From NCBI RefSeq assembly GCF_030065885.1, contig NZ_JASJCS010000014.1, positions 1 to 55,032 on the forward strand: 55,032 bases of DNA, given 5' to 3'. The notes beneath the pieces were generated by a model, which worked only from the letters and a program-made list of their open reading frames with translations, did no database searches and was not told where the DNA came from. The position numbers and the translations under genes are program-made. Within the stretch, counting starts at the first letter, position 1. Every line of letters starts with the position of its first letter. The stretch comes from Ilumatobacter sp. Its GTDB lineage: Bacteria > Actinomycetota > Acidimicrobiia > Acidimicrobiales > Ilumatobacteraceae. This document shows positions 41,006 to 55,032 of the stretch, in pieces.

Positions 41006-41063
41006 CTGTGACGCGACGGTGTCACAAGGTGGCGGACTGCCAGCGGGTCCGGTGCGGCAGTCC

Positions 41064-41215
41064 GGAACGCGTGAGCTTCTTGCGCACATACTGCGCAACT
41101 TCCTCACGCGTTGCCCCCGCTCGCCGGGTGGGCGGGCGCGGAACGCGTGAGCTTCTTGCGCACATACTGCGCAACTTCCTCACGCGTTGCCCCCGCTCGC
41201 CGGGTGGGCGGGCGC
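41064..41215. repeat. Perfect 76-bp tandem duplication with nested inverted repeats
   Basis: Two identical 76-bp units at 41064-41139 and 41140-41215. Each contains outer arms AACGCGTGAG / CTCACGCGTT and inner arms TTGCGCA / TGCGCAA around a CATAC loop, so each can form a long interrupted hairpin. A third unit is started (GGAAC) and is then replaced by the adjoining hairpin. It fills the dnaB-rplI gap; no protein is supported here. Confidence 0.85.
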
Positions 41216-41216
41216 G

Positions 41217-41254
41217 GAACGGCCCCGCGCTCGGCTGGAGCGACGGGGCCGTTC
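41217..41254 (-). terminator. Hairpin terminator after rplI
   Basis: Perfect 11-bp arms GAACGGCCCCG and CGGGGCCGTTC with a 16-nt loop, about 75 nt after the rplI stop. No T-run, as is common in high-GC actinobacteria. Confidence 0.6.
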
Positions 41255-41280: not shown

Positions 41281-41340
41281 GGCGTCGGCGAACCGACTCC
41301 GGTCAGGCGTCGGCGAACCGACTCCCTCAGGCGTCGGCGA
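41281..41340. repeat. 24-25 bp repeats overlapping the rplI 3' end
   Basis: Three copies of GGCGTCGGCGA with spacing 25 and 24 bp, the last lying inside the rplI coding end. The final rplI codons appear to have been duplicated downstream. Confidence 0.6.
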
Positions 41341-46943: not shown

Positions 46944-46970
46944 GAGCGCCTTGGTGCACCGCTCGCGATC

Positions 46971-47027
46971 TCGACCGGTGCCCGCCGTCTCGATCGGTGC
47001 TCGCCGTCTCGACCGGTGCTCGCCGGT
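46971..47027. repeat. 19-bp tandem repeat, three copies, at the 3' end of the DUF192 gene
   Basis: Units CTCGACCGGTGCCCGCCGT, then two variants, at 46971, 46990 and 47009, in the 83-bp convergent gap and touching the DUF192 stop codon. Confidence 0.75.
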
Positions 47028-48033: not shown

Positions 48034-49002
48034 GTGGCGTTCCGTTACGAGGGATACGAGACGAGTCGGGCGATCCCCAACGTGGTGGTCGACGGTTCGC
48101 CGAACGAGAGCACGGTACTGGCGCTGACCCATTGGCCCGGGATCGCCCAGCCCCCGGGCATGGCGCGCGACCTCTCGGCCCAGATGGCGTTCGCCTACCT
48201 CGACGAGCCGGTCCCCCACCCTTCCGCCGAGGTCGTGACCAACAACCACTTCGACCAGGACGGTCTGGTGTCGATCTTCGCGCTCGTCGAGCCGGAGGCG
48301 GCGCTCCACCATCGGGCGTTGCTGATCGACGTCGCCGCCGCCGGCGACTTCGCCACGTACCGCGACCGCCGGGCCGCGCGGACCTCGATGGCGCTGTCGC
48401 AGTTGGCGTCGGCCGAGACGTCGCTGAGCTACAGCGACTTCTCCGATCAGCTCTACCGCGAGCTGCTGCCCGAGCTGCTCCCGATGGTGCTCCACAACGA
48501 CCGGTGCCAGGAGTTGTGGCGCGACGAGGACGAGGCGTTGACCGAGAGCGAGGCCGCGATCGCCACCGGCCGGGTCACCATCGACGAGCGGCCCGACCTC
48601 GATCTGGCGGTCGTGACGATTCCGGCCGCAGAGCCGTCGCGCTCCGGTCATCGCTTCGGCGGCGACGGTTTCGAGGGGATCCATCCGATGGCTCTGCACA
48701 ACGCAACCGAGCGGTTCCGTGTGATCACCGTGCACGGTCGGCGGTATCGCTACGTCGATCGCTACGAGACCTGGGTGCAGTTCCGGTCCCGGCGCGTCCT
48801 GCCGCGCATCGATTTGCGGCCGCTCGCGGACGAGTTGACGGCGATGGAGCGCAGCTCGGTCACGTGGCGGGCGGGTGCACCGCAGGCGTTGACGCCGGAG
48901 TTGGCACACGACGGCGAGTCGTCGCTCGAGCCCGAGACGTTCGTGGGTCTGGTCGTGAGTCGTCTCGCGGGCGGTGCTGCGGGCAGTTTGCGAACCGCGT
49001 GA
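48034..49002 (+). CDS. DUF6687-like conserved protein, unknown function
   Basis: This 322-residue protein has no signal peptide or membrane span. Notable segments are PNVVVDGSPNESTVLALTHW, VVTNNHFDQDGLVSIFALV and ALLIDVAAAGDFATYRDRRA near residues 93-113; the NNHFDQDG motif and surrounding Asp residues suggest a metal or phosphate site but that is an inference. I associate it with DUF6687, from memory only. Its expression appears to be set by a MerR-type regulator encoded elsewhere. Confidence 0.6.
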   Translation: MAFRYEGYETSRAIPNVVVDGSPNESTVLALTHWPGIAQPPGMARDLSAQMAFAYLDEPVPHPSAEVVTNNHFDQDGLVSIFALVEPEAALHHRALLIDVAAAGDFATYRDRRAARTSMALSQLASAETSLSYSDFSDQLYRELLPELLPMVLHNDRCQELWRDEDEALTESEAAIATGRVTIDERPDLDLAVVTIPAAEPSRSGHRFGGDGFEGIHPMALHNATERFRVITVHGRRYRYVDRYETWVQFRSRRVLPRIDLRPLADELTAMERSSVTWRAGAPQALTPELAHDGESSLEPETFVGLVVSRLAGGAAGSLRTA

Positions 49003-49025
49003 CCGGATGTGCACGCCGGGGTTGG

Positions 49026-49439
49026 TGGCGAATCGTCCAACCGTTGATCCCCGCTGACAGGTCCCGCCGCGAATCGTCTCCGTGCCGGCGCTGACGCGGA
49101 CCGTCGCGAATCGCCTCACCGCTCGCCGGCCCGGTCGCGAATCGTCTCACCGCCGGCGCCGACAGGTCCCGTTGCGAATCGTCTCACCGCCGGCGCTGAC
49201 AGCTCACGTCGCGAATCGTCTCACCCCACGCCCGCCGGCCCGGTCGCGAATCGTCTCACCACCGGCGCCGCCAGGGACGGTCGCGAATCGTCTCACCCCG
49301 CGCTCGCCGGCCTGGTCGCGAATCGTCTCACCCCACGCCCGCCCGACCGGTCGCGAATCGTCTCACCACCGGCGCCGACAGGTCCCGTCGCGAATCGTCT
49401 CACCCCACGCCCGCCCGACCGGTCGCGAATCGTCTCACC
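49026..49439. repeat. Repeat array 1: GTCGCGAATCGTCTCACC, about 12 copies
   Basis: Ten near-perfect 18-bp copies start at 49103, 49134, 49171, 49208, 49243, 49280, 49315, 49350, 49387 and 49422, with two degenerate ones at about 49026 and 49066. From 49134 on the period is 37 or 35 bp, set by two spacer types of 19 and 17 bp. The array fills the 454-bp convergent gap between the DUF6687-like gene and the acrylyl-CoA reductase-like gene. No protein is supported here. Confidence 0.85.
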
Positions 49440-49456
49440 GCCGGGCGTCGGCTGCG

Positions 49457-50452
49457 TCAGGCGCGGAGATCCACCACGCTCCGGCCCTTCGCCTCGCCGC
49501 GGAGGATCGCAGCGAGCACGTCGTCGAGCTCGTCGAGTGTGATGTCGTGGCCGATGTCGTCGAGGTTGCTCGGCTTGAGGTCGGCGGCGAGCCGCTCCCA
49601 GGTCGCGCGCCGCCGATCCATCGGGAGCTCGACCGAATCGATGCCGAGCAGGTTGACGCCGCGCAGGATGAAGGGCATGACGGTCGCGGGCAGTCCGGGC
49701 CCGCCGGTCAGTCCACTGGCAGCCACCGACCCGCCGTAGTCGATCCGCTTCAGCACGTTCGCCAGCGTGACGCCGCCGACGCAGTCGACGGCACCAGCCC
49801 AGACCGTCGATTCGAGCGGCCGCCGGCTCTCCTCCGACAGCTCGCTCCGATCGACGATCGAGCTCGCACCGAGGTCCGTGAGGAACTGCGCTGCCTCGGG
49901 CTTGCCGGTACTCGCGACGACCTCGTAGCCGAGGTTCGACAGCATGTCGACCGCGGTCGAGCCGACCCCGCCGGTTGCGCCCGTGACGAGCACGGGTCCG
50001 GATTCCGGTATCACGCCGTGCTCCTGCAGTGCCATGACGGACCGTGCGGCGGTGAAGCCGCCGGTACCGAGGACCATCGCCTCGCGGGTCGTCAGGCCCT
50101 CGGGCAACGCGACGAGCCAGTCCGACGGGACCCGCGCGTACTCGGCGTAGCCCCCATGCCGCCCGACCCCGATCGAGTACCCGTGCGCGATCACCTCGGT
50201 GCCGGCCGGGATGCCGGGTGCATCCTCGACGAGCACGCCCGACAGGTCGACGCCGGGCACGAGCGGCGAGATCCGTGCCACCCGCCCGGTCGGCGTCGAC
50301 GCGAGGCCGTCCTTGTAGTTGACGCTCGACCAGTGGACCTCGACCAGCACACCGTCGTCGGGCAGACCGTCCGATGACATCGTCACGACGCCTCGGCTGA
50401 CCTCCTCGCCGTCGGTGACCGCCTGGAACGCTCGGAACGACTCGACGCTCAT
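49457..50452 (-). CDS. acuI: Acrylyl-CoA reductase-type zinc-free alcohol dehydrogenase (AcuI/YhdH family)
   Basis: This 331-residue MDR-superfamily oxidoreductase has VEVHWSSVNYKDGLA near residue 40, PGVDLSGVLVED and the NADPH-binding VTGATGGVGSTAVDML, matching the AcuI/YhdH group that reduces acrylyl-CoA to propionyl-CoA. No zinc ligands are seen. The ATG at 50452 is chosen because TAGGGT lies 7 nt upstream and homology begins there. A general quinone-oxidoreductase-like role cannot be excluded. Confidence 0.8.
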   Translation of the reverse strand: MSVESFRAFQAVTDGEEVSRGVVTMSSDGLPDDGVLVEVHWSSVNYKDGLASTPTGRVARISPLVPGVDLSGVLVEDAPGIPAGTEVIAHGYSIGVGRHGGYAEYARVPSDWLVALPEGLTTREAMVLGTGGFTAARSVMALQEHGVIPESGPVLVTGATGGVGSTAVDMLSNLGYEVVASTGKPEAAQFLTDLGASSIVDRSELSEESRRPLESTVWAGAVDCVGGVTLANVLKRIDYGGSVAASGLTGGPGLPATVMPFILRGVNLLGIDSVELPMDRRRATWERLAADLKPSNLDDIGHDITLDELDDVLAAILRGEAKGRSVVDLRA

Positions 50453-50459
50453 GCGGCCG

Positions 50460-50465
50460 ACCCTA
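50460..50465 (-). promoter_or_regulatory. -10 hexamer TAGGGT, leaderless start of acuI
   Basis: TAGGGT lies 7 nt before the ATG at 50452 on the minus strand. Confidence 0.45.
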
Positions 50466-50510
50466 CAAACCGACGCCGTCCGGCCCCGACTCCCGACCGG
50501 CGCGACTCGA

Positions 50511-51044
50511 TCACGCGCCGGTCGACGCTCCGTCGGTCCGCAGGCGCGACCAGACCTCGAGGTCGTGGTACTCGCCCCGGTGGAACCAACAGCCACGCAT
50601 GACGCCCTCCACCGTGAAGCCGCACTTCAGGGCGACCTGCTTCGACGCGACGTTGTCGGGATGGATGTTCAGCTGCATGCGATGCACGCGCTTGCGGCCG
50701 AACAGGTAGTCGACGATGAGCATCACCGACTCGGTGGTGTAGCCCTTGCCGTGGTGCTCCTCACCGAACAGCTGGTACGAGATCTCGTACCCCTGCAGGT
50801 AGTGCGTGATCGGGAAGAACTCGATCTCCCCGACGATCTCGCCGCCGTGGGTCGTGATGAGCAGCATGCCCTCGTCCTCGCCCCAGAAGCCGCTCTCCGC
50901 GAACCTCGCTCGGAGCCGGGGCTCACTCGTCACGCCGAGCGGGAAGTAGGCACCGCGGGCAGCGAGATTCGTGGTCAGCTCGTAGAACGTCCCCAGGTCG
51001 CCTTCCCGGACCAGCCGAAGCTCGATCAGATCACCTCGGAGCAC
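50511..51044 (-). CDS. GNAT-family N-acetyltransferase (RimJ/RimL type)
   Basis: This 177-residue protein has the RimJ-like pattern LIELRLVREGDLGTFYEL, EISYQLFGEEHHGKGYTTES (acetyl-CoA-binding loop) and MQLNIHPDNVASKQVALKCG. It likely acetylates the N-terminus of a protein or a small amine. The GTG at 51044 has a GGGAGG Shine-Dalgarno sequence. Confidence 0.85.
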   Translation of the reverse strand: MLRGDLIELRLVREGDLGTFYELTTNLAARGAYFPLGVTSEPRLRARFAESGFWGEDEGMLLITTHGGEIVGEIEFFPITHYLQGYEISYQLFGEEHHGKGYTTESVMLIVDYLFGRKRVHRMQLNIHPDNVASKQVALKCGFTVEGVMRGCWFHRGEYHDLEVWSRLRTDGASTGA

Positions 51045-51107
51045 CGTGCACCTCCCGACGTTCGCTGCGCGACCATACAGGTCGCGCAGCGAACTTGCCG
51101 GGGGTCC

Positions 51108-51425
51108 TCACTCCCAGGGCCAGGTGCAGATGCCGTGAGTGTGGCCGTGATCGCTGCTCTCCCAGTCGGTGTAGGTGCCGCCGGCCAACTCGCATGCACC
51201 CCCGAGGATCCCGCAGGAAACTGCTCCTTCGCAGGTCGTCGAGTGCTGACGCTGGTCGGGCACCGCCAGCTCGGCGACGGGCGGGGGCGGCGGTGGCGAG
51301 ACCGGCCGCATCGTGAACGACGCCTGCGCCCGCTCCACGGTGGAATCGGTGGCGTTCACGCCGGTGCCGATGCCGATGCCGGCGGCGGCGATCGTGAGCC
51401 CGACGATGATCTGGGACGTACGCAT
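51108..51425 (-). CDS. Small secreted cysteine-containing protein, unknown function
   Basis: A 105-residue protein with a signal peptide or anchor (residues 5-23), a Pro-rich stretch (about 42-50) and a C-terminal part with four cysteines (CEGAVSCGILGGAC...C) that may form two disulfides. AGGAG precedes the ATG at 51425. No family recognised. Confidence 0.6.
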   Translation of the reverse strand: MRTSQIIVGLTIAAAGIGIGTGVNATDSTVERAQASFTMRPVSPPPPPPVAELAVPDQRQHSTTCEGAVSCGILGGACELAGGTYTDWESSDHGHTHGICTWPWE

Positions 51426-51615
51426 GATGATGCTCCTGTGTTCGGCGAGCGGCCGTTCCGCCCGTCGCCCGTCCAGATCGACGACTGCCGTGGATCTCGC
51501 GCTTTCTCACCGACACACCGCCGTTCTGCGCGAGGCGACCCCGAAGCTCGACCCTGATCACCGTGGTGCTTCGTCGTCGTCCCGAGATTCCGGCGCGCCG
51601 GACCAGTGGCGCGAC

Positions 51616-51646
51616 GACGCCGGGCGCCGTGAACGCGCCCGGCGTC
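51616..51646 (-). terminator. Perfect 12-bp hairpin after the frameshifted gene
   Basis: GACGCCGGGCGC and GCGCCCGGCGTC enclose a 7-nt loop, 12 nt after the stop of the broken gene at 51659. There is no T-run. The rest of 51426-51658 shows nothing. Confidence 0.55.
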
Positions 51647-51658
51647 GGATTCCGTCGA

Positions 51659-52161
51659 TCAGTGGGGCAGATGGATCTCACCCTCGTACGTCAGCACGAA
51701 GCTCGGACCCTCCCCCGTCCCGTGCCCGCGGGCGCCGGCCAGATCACCGGTGCCGCCCCTGATGAACCACCGGCCCTCCCAGGGGAAGTCACTCGGTGTC
51801 GGCAGGCCCGGATCCTGCTCGCCGATCGCGAGGAGTTGCAGTGTTCCCTCGTGCATCACGCCGTCGGCGTCCATGACGGTGCCGGTGAACTCGGCGTTGC
51901 CGGCGATGAGGTTCTTGCCCGGCCCGCCCAGACGCACGAGCCAGAGCTCCTCGACCGTCTTCCCCGTCATGTCGCCGGTCAGCTCACCATGCGCGACGCC
52001 GCGGAGCACGATGTTCTGACGAACTCCGCCACGGTCTCGATCTCGACCGGAACGTACGTCCAGTCGCCGCTGACTCCGGTCTTCGGGTGTGCCGTCGCGA
52101 CCCCGGCCGCCGCTGCGAACGCCACGACCGCCAACATGGCACCTACGACTCGCCGCTTCAT
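51659..52161 (-). pseudogene. Secreted allene-oxide-cyclase-barrel-like protein with a frameshift
   Basis: An N-terminal part reads from the ATG at 52161: signal peptide MKRRVVGAMLAVVAFAAAAG, then GVSGDWTYVPVEIETVAEFVR, and stops at 51979 in a wrong-looking tail. The rest continues in another frame as QNIVLRGVAHGELTGDMTG down to the stop at 51659, including GGTGDLAGARGHGTGEG, a motif of barrel-like secreted proteins related to DUF3224 or allene-oxide cyclase. Joining the frames near 52015 gives one plausible protein of about 165 residues. A true mutation and a sequencing error are both possible. Confidence 0.6.
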
Positions 52162-52343
52162 GTGCTTCGCGTCATCTGCGCATCGACTGCGCATCGTCGG
52201 ACGCCGCGGGCGAGCCTCACTTGGCCGTTTCGGGCTGCCATGGAGGAGCGCACCTCGGCCTCCCTCGATCATGCGCCCCCGGTGTTCGCGGCAAGTGGTC
52301 GGGGGTCACTCGGACCGCAACGGTTTCGGTCGAGCTCAGCCGT

Positions 52344-52730
52344 TCAGTCCGGTCGCCAGCGGGTCAGGCGTTGCGGCGAGCTGCCCGGCAGGCGTTCGAT
52401 CTCGCAGCGCGCCTCGAGGTCGACCTTGGTGTAGGTGCAGTAGTTGCGTGTGCGGCCCTTCGGGAACAGCTCGTGCGTCGAGTAGCGATCCTGGGCCGCG
52501 GCCACGACGTCCTTCAGGAGGACGGTGCCGTCGTCGTCGCACTCGTCGTCGAGCATCTCGAGGATGTGGGCGCGCATCAGCTCGTACTGGGCGAGGCCCA
52601 TCGTCCACCCGTCGAGCCCTCCTGGGCGCGTTGCGTTGAAGATCTCGACCCGCCCGCGCTCGCGTGCTTCGGCGTCGGCATCCCATGCCGGCTGCGGCAC
52701 GGGGCCGGCGTGGGGGTCGCGCTCGGGCAT
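52344..52730 (-). CDS. DUF6958-like protein
   Basis: This 128-residue protein has a charged N-terminus, YELMRAHILEMLDD, FPKGRTRNYCTYTKVDLEAR and CEIERLPGSSPQRL; the VDLEAR segment with a following P-Q-R-L motif is what I associate with the DUF6958 family. Function is unknown; the fold looks like a small winged helix. Its ATG overlaps the mftD stop by one base (TGATG), so it is co-translated with mftD. Confidence 0.65.
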   Translation of the reverse strand: MPERDPHAGPVPQPAWDADAEARERGRVEIFNATRPGGLDGWTMGLAQYELMRAHILEMLDDECDDDGTVLLKDVVAAAQDRYSTHELFPKGRTRNYCTYTKVDLEARCEIERLPGSSPQRLTRWRPD

Positions 52731-53902
52731 CAGGCCATGGCCGGCGGGGAGAAGCCGTCGGGGATCACGAGATCGCCGGGGCCGAGCTCCTTGATCGACG
52801 ACTTGCCGAGGCCGAGCATGGTCGAGTCGATGCCCATCCGGAGGACGTCGAGCACGTTCTCGACGCCGGCCTGTCCGTTGGCCGCGAGGCCCCACAGGTA
52901 GGCCCTGCCGATCATCACCGCCTTGGCACCGAGGGCCAGCGCCTTCACCACGTCGCTCCCCCGTCGAATGCCGCCGTCCATGACGATCTCGATCTGATCG
53001 CCCACGACGTCGACGATCTCGGGGAGCACCCGGATCGGCGCCGGCGCGCCATCGAGGTTGTTCCCGCCGTGGTTCGACACCGAGATCGCCGTCGCGCCCG
53101 CGTCGAGCGCGCGGCGGGCCTCGTCGGGCCGGCCGATCCCCTTGACCATGAACGGACCGCCCCACTGCTCGCGCAGCCAGGCGATGTCCGCCCACGTGGC
53201 GGGCGGCGTCCCCATCCACACGCCGTACGCGTCGAAGAAGTGCGGGTCGGGCTCGCCGAGGGCGTTGAAGTTGGGCACGCCGAGGCCCGGTAGCTGGCCC
53301 GTCCGCAGCCACTCGAGCAGCCAGACCGGTCGCATCGCGACCTCGGGCACGTGCTTGAGCACCGTCAGCGGCTTCATGTCCTGGGGGATCTTCGGGCTCC
53401 CCCAGTCACGGCTGTGGACGAACGACCAGTCGAGCGTGACGATCAGTCCACCAGCGCCGGCGGCCTTGGCGCGGTCCATCCGCATCACCATCGAGTCGCG
53501 GTCCCCGGCCCAGTAGATCTGGAAGAACGTCTGCGGGTTGGCGTCGACGACGGCCTCGAGCGGCTTGCTGGCGAACGAGCTGAGCCCCATCACGACGCCG
53601 CGGGCGGCCGCGGCACGCGCGACCGCCAGCTCGCCGTCCGGATGGACGGCCTGCACACCGGTCGGCGAGATCATCACCGGCATCGACATCGGCTGCCCCA
53701 TGACCTCGGTCGCCATGTCGCGTTCGGGGGGCTGGCCGGCGGTGATCGGTCGGACCCCGAGCTCGTCGAACGCGGCCAGGTTGTCGTCCAGCGTGACGCC
53801 ACGCTCGGCGCCGGCGATCAGCGCGCCGTACACGGACTTGGGGAGCTTGCGCTTCGCCCGCCGCTGCGCCACCGCGACCGATTCGAACCATGCGTTTGCC
53901 AC
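52730..53902 (-). CDS. mftD: Pre-mycofactocin synthase MftD-like FMN-dependent dehydrogenase
   Basis: This 390-residue protein matches the MftD/LldD1 pattern of Mycobacterium closely: AKRKLPKSVYGALIAG, ISPTGVQAVHPDGELAVARA, GLSSFASKPLEAVV, DWGSPKIPQDM, GPFMVKGIGRPDEARRALDA, SVSNHGGNNLDG and VMDGGIRRGSDVVKALALGA. MftD oxidises the modified peptide during mycofactocin redox-cofactor synthesis using FMN. The GTG at 53902 matches the length of known MftD and has TACGCT 6 nt upstream; an ATG at 53971 adds 23 residues. The rest of the mft cluster is not in this window. Confidence 0.85.
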   Translation of the reverse strand: MANAWFESVAVAQRRAKRKLPKSVYGALIAGAERGVTLDDNLAAFDELGVRPITAGQPPERDMATEVMGQPMSMPVMISPTGVQAVHPDGELAVARAAAARGVVMGLSSFASKPLEAVVDANPQTFFQIYWAGDRDSMVMRMDRAKAAGAGGLIVTLDWSFVHSRDWGSPKIPQDMKPLTVLKHVPEVAMRPVWLLEWLRTGQLPGLGVPNFNALGEPDPHFFDAYGVWMGTPPATWADIAWLREQWGGPFMVKGIGRPDEARRALDAGATAISVSNHGGNNLDGAPAPIRVLPEIVDVVGDQIEIVMDGGIRRGSDVVKALALGAKAVMIGRAYLWGLAANGQAGVENVLDVLRMGIDSTMLGLGKSSIKELGPGDLVIPDGFSPPAMA

Positions 53903-53908
53903 GGCGTC

Positions 53909-53914
53909 AGCGTA
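53909..53914 (-). promoter_or_regulatory. -10 hexamer TACGCT, leaderless start of mftD
   Basis: TACGCT lies 6 nt before the GTG at 53902 on the minus strand. The opposing plus-strand CACACT at 53967-53972 belongs to the methyltransferase gene. Confidence 0.45.
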
Positions 53915-53978
53915 GGTGTTGGCGGTTCGCCGGGCCTCAGCCGCCGCCGACTCCACGGACCGGTGCCACACTGGCGTC

Positions 53979-54635
53979 GTGACCTCGCCTGACTTCGTCA
54001 GTGCCGACGGCAGTCCCCTGGCGGTCTACCTCGCGCTGCCCGCGGGTGACGCGCCGATGCTCGTGCATCGCGCCATCCGCCCCGAGTCGACGATCCTCGA
54101 GCTCGGCTCCGGCCCGGGCCGTCTCACGCGAGCCCTCGTCGCACTCGGTCACGACGTGACGGCCGTCGACGACAGCCCGGAGATGCTCGCCCACGTCACC
54201 GGAGCCGACTGCGTCGCCGCGGACGCCTTCGAACTCGACCTCGGCCGGACGTTCGACGTCGTCCTGGCGGCCAGCACCCTGATCAACCGGCCCGGGGCCG
54301 AGCACCGAGCCCGGCTGCTCGAGGTCGCGAGCCGCCATCTGCGAGACGGGGGATCGTTCATCGTCGAGCGATTCGAGCCCGGATGGCTGCTCAGCGCCAC
54401 CGACACCGCGGAGGAGTGTGGCCCCGTGAGGATGGTGTTCGAGGCAGGCGCGATCACCGGATCGGTGAGATCGGCGGCGATGACGTACCACCTCGGCGGG
54501 CGGTCGTGGCGCCAGGAGTTCGACGCCGAGGACCTGCCCGATGCCGTGCTCGAGGCCGAAGCGGCCGCGGTCGGGCTCGTCGTGACGCGCCACCTCGACG
54601 ATGCAGGAAGCTGGGTCGGGCTCACCCACCGGTGA
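53979..54635 (+). CDS. Class I SAM-dependent methyltransferase
   Basis: This 218-residue enzyme has motif I ILELGSGPGRLTRAL near residue 39-53, an acidic residue at the end of strand 2 (VTAVDDSPEMLAHV), a strand 4 region FDVVLAASTLINRPG and GGSFIVERFEPGWLL. The substrate is not predictable. The GTG at 53979 is chosen because CACACT lies 6 nt upstream; an ATG at 53916 adds 21 residues that lie in the divergent promoter. Confidence 0.82.
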   Translation: MTSPDFVSADGSPLAVYLALPAGDAPMLVHRAIRPESTILELGSGPGRLTRALVALGHDVTAVDDSPEMLAHVTGADCVAADAFELDLGRTFDVVLAASTLINRPGAEHRARLLEVASRHLRDGGSFIVERFEPGWLLSATDTAEECGPVRMVFEAGAITGSVRSAAMTYHLGGRSWRQEFDAEDLPDAVLEAEAAAVGLVVTRHLDDAGSWVGLTHR

Positions 54636-54781
54636 CGTAGGCAACCGCCGGTGCGGCATCGCGCTCGAGACGGGTCGCGTCGCCACCTGACGCTGCGGCG
54701 GACGCCACCACGTCCAGCGTCGCTGTGGCTGCCACTGAGACATCGTCACGAGCGGTTCACATCCACCGGAGCCGCTACCCC

Positions 54782-55032
54782 GCGAGACGATTCACGACCC
54801 GAACCCATGCGCCGCGAGACGATTCACGACCCACCCCACGCCACCCCACACCACGAGACGATTCACAACGACACGAACCACACCCCGCGAGACGATTCAC
54901 GACAACACGAACCACACGCTGCGAGACGATTCACGACCCACCCCACGCCACCCCACCCCGCGAGACGATTCACAACGACACGAACCACACCCCGCGAGAC
55001 GATTCACGACAACACGAACCACACGCTGCGAG
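54782..55032. repeat. Repeat array 2: GCGAGACGATTCACGAC, at least 8 copies, open at window end
   Basis: Copies start at 54782, 54814, 54853, 54887, 54921, 54960, 54994 and 55028 (cut by the edge), with steps of 32, 39, 34, 34, 39, 34 and 34 bp. Two copies (54853, 54960) read CACAAC instead of CACGAC. Spacers are of two kinds, a C-rich 22-nt type and an A/C-rich 17-nt type. The core is the reverse complement, with one base changed, of the array 1 core. The 146 bp from 54636 to 54781 show no gene. Confidence 0.85.

Follow-up and report, generated by a model that had tools for sequence, protein, structure and literature searches.

One-directional repeat arrays, apparently of an undescribed family, in Ilumatobacter and related actinobacteria

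Two tandem repeat arrays with one core in opposite orientation are found in the last 6 kb of a 55,032-bp stretch of DNA from Ilumatobacter sp. (hereafter the window), and the locus raises the question of what such arrays are and whether they belong together. In the original prediction, made from the letters of the window, they were described as framing a 5.3-kb block, and three readings were offered: a dispersed repeat family, the binding array of a nucleoid or segregation protein, or the edges of an acquired or invertible block. The window is an entire contig (C103) of a draft assembly (200 contigs, 5.04 Mb, 90.7% complete), which itself breaks within array 2.

Arrays and genes in the window

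The features of the locus are collected in Table 1. The core common to both arrays is GAATCGTCTC, running in opposite directions as had been claimed: the window contains 17 copies of GAGACGATTC where 0.26 are expected, a number reached in none of 100 dinucleotide shuffles. All copies were inside the arrays; the minus strand has 10 (49071-49436) and the plus strand 7 (54784-55005). If GAATCGTCTC read on the plus strand is written '>', array 1 consists of '>' units throughout and array 2 of '<' units. The steps were 31-37 bp in array 1 (mean 35.6 for the 11 units that have no more than one core mismatch) and 32-39 bp in array 2 (mean 35.3), which reaches the contig end. The three left-end units of array 1 differed from GAGACGATTCRCRAC by 3, 1, and 1 mismatches, and a higher-order period of 107 bp was detected in both arrays with TRF. 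A third array of the same genome was found on contig C20 ('>>>>>><<'), and the 18 core pairs of the genome, 12 forward and 6 reverse, are fully covered by array 1 (8), array 2 (6), and the C20 array (4).

Table 1 Arrays of the window and the genes beside them
Feature	Position	Strand	Description
DUF6687 gene	48034..49002	+	Pfam PF20392, E 2.6e-78; left convergent neighbour of array 1
Array 1	49026..49439	-	12 units: 9 exact GAGACGATTCRCRAC, 3 degraded at left end
acuI-type zinc-binding dehydrogenase gene	49457..50452	-	Pfam ADH_zinc_N, ADH_N; right convergent neighbour of array 1
Methyltransferase gene	53979..54635	+	Pfam Methyltransf_11, E 4.3e-12; left neighbour of array 2
Array 2	54782..55032	+	7 exact GCGAGACGATTCACRAC units and a cut eighth

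The arrays had been said to contain no ORF; a codon-usage gene caller (our own script) indeed called no gene in either of them, but mechanical ORFs do cross both. They had also been said to follow plus-strand genes, which is correct for both left neighbours, but array 1 lies between convergent genes, occupying the 454-bp gap between the stop codons of the DUF6687 gene (49002) and acuI (49457). For acuI, a plasmid match carries the annotation acryloyl-CoA reductase. The methyltransferase gene, which precedes array 2, also belongs to the block and had not been listed.

The DUF6687 gene and acuI were found adjacent in two relatives, where they overlap by 11 bp (G003) or are 6 bp apart (G008), without an array. 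Judged from these sequences, array 1 is a local gain with one clean empty site. The order and orientation DUF6687-acuI-mftD are kept in both relatives in the absence of the array, and the halves of the 17 convergent arrays measured are 30-184 bp apart, not kilobases; neither the acquired or invertible block nor the frame was upheld. Arrays 1 and 2 do face each other like convergent halves, 5.3 kb apart, and it is possible that they act together. Between acuI and mftD, the window has extras compared with the relatives (GNAT, two small ORFs, and DUF6958), so a gene gain there is possible; nothing found ties it to the arrays.

The locus (48034-54635) contains mftD, whose locus lies ~22 kb from parS in G001 and ~19 kb in G009, and the window is therefore probably near the replication origin. 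Other tandem repeats of the window were two perfect 76-bp copies (41063-41221) and a 25-bp repeat (41281-41340), both adjoining an rplI-like gene, and a 19-bp unit repeated 3.4 times (46961-47025) between ABC-transporter genes and the next gene.

Occurrence and layout among relatives

The strict 15-mer was present in 7 of 100 genomes including the source genome, the other six having one match each. The tandem pattern, searched over genome contigs, gave 111 stretches, of which 14 were titled Ilumatobacter, Ilumatobacteraceae, or Acidimicrobiaceae NAT239; all eight stretches with a '>' block followed by a '<' block were within those 14. Seven stretches from other groups mixed orientations otherwise, and many others were one-way repeats. 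Within the family, GTGAGACGATTC was found in 52 of 221 genomes (reversed control: two matches in all) and GAATCGTNNC pairs in 38 of 221 (no control match in the table), at least six pairs being present in 12 genomes of five genera and a single pair in most other positive genomes. The core-pair pattern occurred in 5 of the 10 genomes of the source genus; array-bearing members are G000, G001, G002, G005, and G006, and G003, G008, and G009 are among those free of arrays. Any function of the arrays is thus dispensable, since half of the genus is without them by this pattern. In 258 genomes drawn from the order, GAATCGTCNC pairs were found in nine: three array-bearing family members, G282 with 7 places, and five with one or two. 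A pattern search allowing 3 mismatches was too noisy for use.

Occurrence is thus patchy in the family Ilumatobacteraceae, with one genome (G282) of another family in the same order. The G282 cores were arranged '>>', '<<', '>><', or '>>><', never '<>', and four other G282 stretches had no cores. At L325-L331 of this genome the cores are GAATCGTCAC, often with GTGAC directly after, which makes some units palindromic around TCACGTGA, the centre of the parS consensus. Outside the order, long one-way GAGACGATTC arrays with a 28-bp step were seen in Massilia (L066, L101). Three stretches of viral contigs matched; one is a one-way array with a 24-bp step (L155), and no cluster of three cores was present in the other two. 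The window stretch was matched by 232 plasmid records, and the 20 matches listed cover, where annotated, only acuI- or mftD-like coding parts. Among the listings of open-licence literature on Ilumatobacter repeats, Acidimicrobiia repeats, and regularly spaced arrays, nothing matching was found, and the matches listed for the core words look unrelated by title. The first of the three predicted readings, a dispersed repeat family, is borne out by the C20 array and the arrays in relatives: the core was neither at random density nor absent from relatives, and the arrays, whose repeats run in one direction, apparently make up a family not described before within a group of actinobacteria.

The measurements below were made on the loci that had been fetched, 27 arrays with 164 cores from 11 genomes; an array of G021 has 16 units. 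Seventeen arrays were convergent (>>><<<), none divergent, and ten one-way, in searches that favoured neither order and with the G246 elements (see below), which came from a convergent pattern, left out. Every two-way array (17/17) was a single '>' block followed by a single '<' block.

The arrays were extragenic at nearly every locus examined; at L202 the array runs over the start of a called gene, and at L200 a two-unit array (L200:7700-7752, G034) directly adjoins a PIN-domain gene, stopping 11 bp short of its start. The flanking gene pairs were convergent, divergent (L191), or co-directional. Orthologous arrays were identified at L188/L193, L189/L194/L222, and L191/L202, and across genera at L031 of the source genome and L201 of G034, with steps of 35.5 and 43. 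A second locus resembles that of array 1: the gap between the S4-domain gene and ksgA is 591 bp in G001 and 216 bp in G005, both with an array, and 31 bp in G006 without one; G004, however, has 321 bp there and no array either. In G001, the ksgA array is directly adjoined by an unrelated repeat of ~71-bp period (TTCTCGGTG ... GCCGAGA; L188:7678-7940, G001:C1), which has many additional matches across G001 and G005 and some in G004.

The neighbours of the arrays include mixed metabolic genes and ArsR-type and GntR-type regulators, and an FtsK gene lies 523 bp from one array. A regulon was rejected, as the 25 neighbours scanned, of roughly 42, had no common function, and no replication or partition gene was among the 25. 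In the two complete, single-contig genomes, with the origin position taken from parS, the arrays were 0.29 and 0.23 (G001) and 0.46 and 0.24 (G021) genome lengths away, and a weaker core pair of G021 was at ~0.48. A role at the origin or terminus was rejected, the arrays being at no fixed distance from the origin in these two genomes.

Core, spacers, step, and folding

The core is GAATCGTC[T/A]C; the base four positions upstream is usually T. Between arrays of one genome, core columns were 0.94-1.00 identical, values inflated partly by construction because cores were collected at no more than one mismatch; the upstream T was 0.93 identical and most spacer columns ~0.3. Inner spacers from different arrays of one genome were no more alike than shuffled ones (0.47 vs 0.46, 415 pairs), with G032 as an exception (0.59-0.64 vs 0.55-0.56). 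With the caveat of the one-mismatch collection, the core is a conserved site in diverged surroundings. Within arrays the mean spacer identity was 0.62, and duplication therefore goes on inside them.

The core also differs between genomes as a set. Exact GAATCGTCTC was present in 123 of 134 cores of nine genomes, whereas G002 and G006 have GAATCGTCAC at 30 of 30, so that A at the ninth core base was found in all 30 cores of these two and in 0 of 134 in the nine others. At the carboxyltransferase-gene locus, where the flanks were alignable on both sides, orthologous arrays have A cores in G006 and T cores in G001 and G005. Neutral minisatellites, with a core common by descent or chance, would explain the varying unit number at the orthologous ksgA locus (8 in G001, 3 in G005), and these genomes are rich in tandem repeats of other kinds; this reading is highly improbable given that unlinked arrays agree in core and differ in spacers, that all 17 two-way arrays are convergent, and that the one-base change is concerted.

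A step common to unlinked arrays (22, 34, 35, 42, or 43 bp) was found in 7 of 10 multi-array genomes (G000, G005, G006, G021, G032, G034, and G051); G186 has one array only. Deviating steps were measured in G001 (35.0 and 39.8), G002 (36 to 42.7), and G181 (42, 44.5, and 55). None of 10,000 label shuffles matched the within-genome agreement of array mean steps, in a test that ignores phylogeny. Spacer pairs within an array at 40-50% identity (n = 13) were equal in length to 1 bp in 54% of cases. Helical phasing of the step was not significant (R ~0.5, p ~0.1). No unit was skipped in 120 same-orientation steps, a result on which the mismatch limit has no bearing. Past the array ends, the position where one more unit would be expected had no more than 3 mismatches in 3 of 51 cases, hardly more often than control places (24 of 931); the arrays are thus intact inside and sharp at their ends.

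These features could also arise if an enzyme wrote the arrays in fixed steps from the core, as a ruler distantly comparable to CRISPR adaptation or to a nickase cutting at a fixed distance; the enzyme and not selection would then account for core and step. Sharp ends, zero skipped units, and a genome-wide common step with unrelated spacers fit such a writer, but an enzyme candidate is lacking, three genomes have mixed steps, and spacers are often copies within an array (the 0.62 identity and the 107-bp period), as in plain duplication. We consider it improbable.

Convergent arrays fold as RNA, as facing repeats must (z -4.8 to -10.4, seven tested), and so do array 2 (z -2.9) and the one-way array L188 (z -4.7). 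An RNA-level element at gene ends, e.g. a two-way terminator or processing signal, would account for this folding, but array 1 shows no such fold (z +2.6), divergent genes flank some of the arrays (L191), and primary sequence is kept where compensating changes would suffice. Searches against Rfam gave no array match at nine loci at gathering scores (the only matches were two tRNAs elsewhere) and no match in the window at 48900-55032 with E up to 1. The RNA reading is accordingly quite improbable.

At least 17 dispersed compact elements were found in G246 (genus g11). Twelve of the 14 fetched were within 35 bp of a stop codon, ten were between convergent genes, and six had both orientations and exact cores, all six convergent. 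Of ten folded, eight had z of -3 or lower, the hairpins arising from two facing units, and the elements look like gene-end hairpins.

Comparison with known systems and proposed function

The G246 elements bring in the main rival, a REP/REPIN-like mobile extragenic element in which facing units form hairpins, a transposase or replication slippage spreads the copies, and arrays are copies that have expanded, without any binding protein belonging to the host. The REP literature served for comparison (PMC3733652, PMC2817692). The arrays resemble REPs, BIMEs, and REPINs in being extragenic, in their facing units, and in the compact gene-end form of G246; REPs also lie near gene 3' ends (PMC3733652). 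They differ in that the unit is non-palindromic, core plus flank forming no hairpin of its own where a palindromic unit of 20-40 bp defines REPs, and in having no GTAG or CGTC tag with a stem. BIMEs alternate in orientation, whereas the arrays are blocks of one orientation. REPs exceed 100 copies per genome; the source genome has 18 core pairs in three arrays, loci per genome are few outside g11, and several array loci are conserved in place, one between genera (L031, L201). A link to RAYT transposases, a criterion of GTAG REPs, was rejected because genes with Y1_Tnp (PF01797) were uncorrelated with arrays, being found in 7 of the 13 genomes tested that have arrays and in 3 of the 6 that have none (10 of 20 genomes in all). 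CGTC REPs also occur without an associated transposase (PMC3733652). On balance, the REP-like reading is rather unlikely.

Four other systems share single features with the arrays. The MIRU-VNTR loci of mycobacteria are likewise actinobacterial intergenic tandem arrays of variable unit number, but here the short core alone is kept, spacers diverge, halves are convergent, and the step is genome-common. Iterons and plasmid centromeres consist of short polar repeats set at a regular step, as suits a DNA-binding protein that acts cooperatively; the arrays resemble them in this layout but differ in occupying several chromosomal loci with no replication or partition gene among the 25 neighbours. CRISPR arrays have short repeats in one orientation and unique spacers of near-constant length; the arrays share the short repeats and the spacer length, but have facing halves, spacers duplicated within arrays, and a core of ~10-18 bp. 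Tus/Ter replication fork traps are opposed groups of polar, non-palindromic sites at the terminus, whereas the opposed halves of arrays are within a few hundred bases of each other and, in two genomes, array and origin are separated by 0.23-0.46 genome lengths, so that the arrays are not at the terminus.

The agreement of the core, and usually of the step, between unconnected arrays of one genome suggests that something in the cell recognises them. We read this as recognition in trans, the units most likely being polar binding sites for a putative DNA-binding protein. The core, its polarity, and for the most part the step go with the genome and not with the locus, for which a single trans factor is the simplest account. 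We therefore favour, at a probability of about 0.5, the reading that the arrays are extragenic platforms of polar sites for a putative trans-acting, sequence-specific DNA-binding protein. The binding array of the original prediction is thus the favoured function; its nucleoid or segregation role was unsupported, with no fixed distance from the origin in the two complete genomes.

The putative protein would act in trans on every array of a genome, one unit being one site read in a single direction. Adjacent molecules would touch across a fixed length, and selection would for this reason hold core and step while spacers drift. Two facing halves would close into one complex, with a possible insulating or constraining effect on the intergenic DNA. 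Arrays would expand and contract by tandem duplication, arise at new intergenic sites, and be retained only when well stepped and intact. We infer that the trans factor is a DNA-binding protein and that it binds cooperatively; the insulating role is a guess. No candidate for the binding protein of the arrays was found.

It is possible, at less than even odds, that these convergent polar arrays are chromosomal elements of a new class in Acidimicrobiia, with a single trans-acting machine setting both word and unit length across each genome. This machine would either close off intergenic DNA as a regular nucleoprotein filament or write arrays in fixed steps. A sharply defined word, a unit length fixed in most genomes, and a layout rule are assets for finding the factor by pull-down, and two of the related genomes are single-contig. 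If a protein binds in fixed steps, the arrays would be a natural bacterial step-locked polar array; if an enzyme writes them, they would represent a new DNA-amplifying system.
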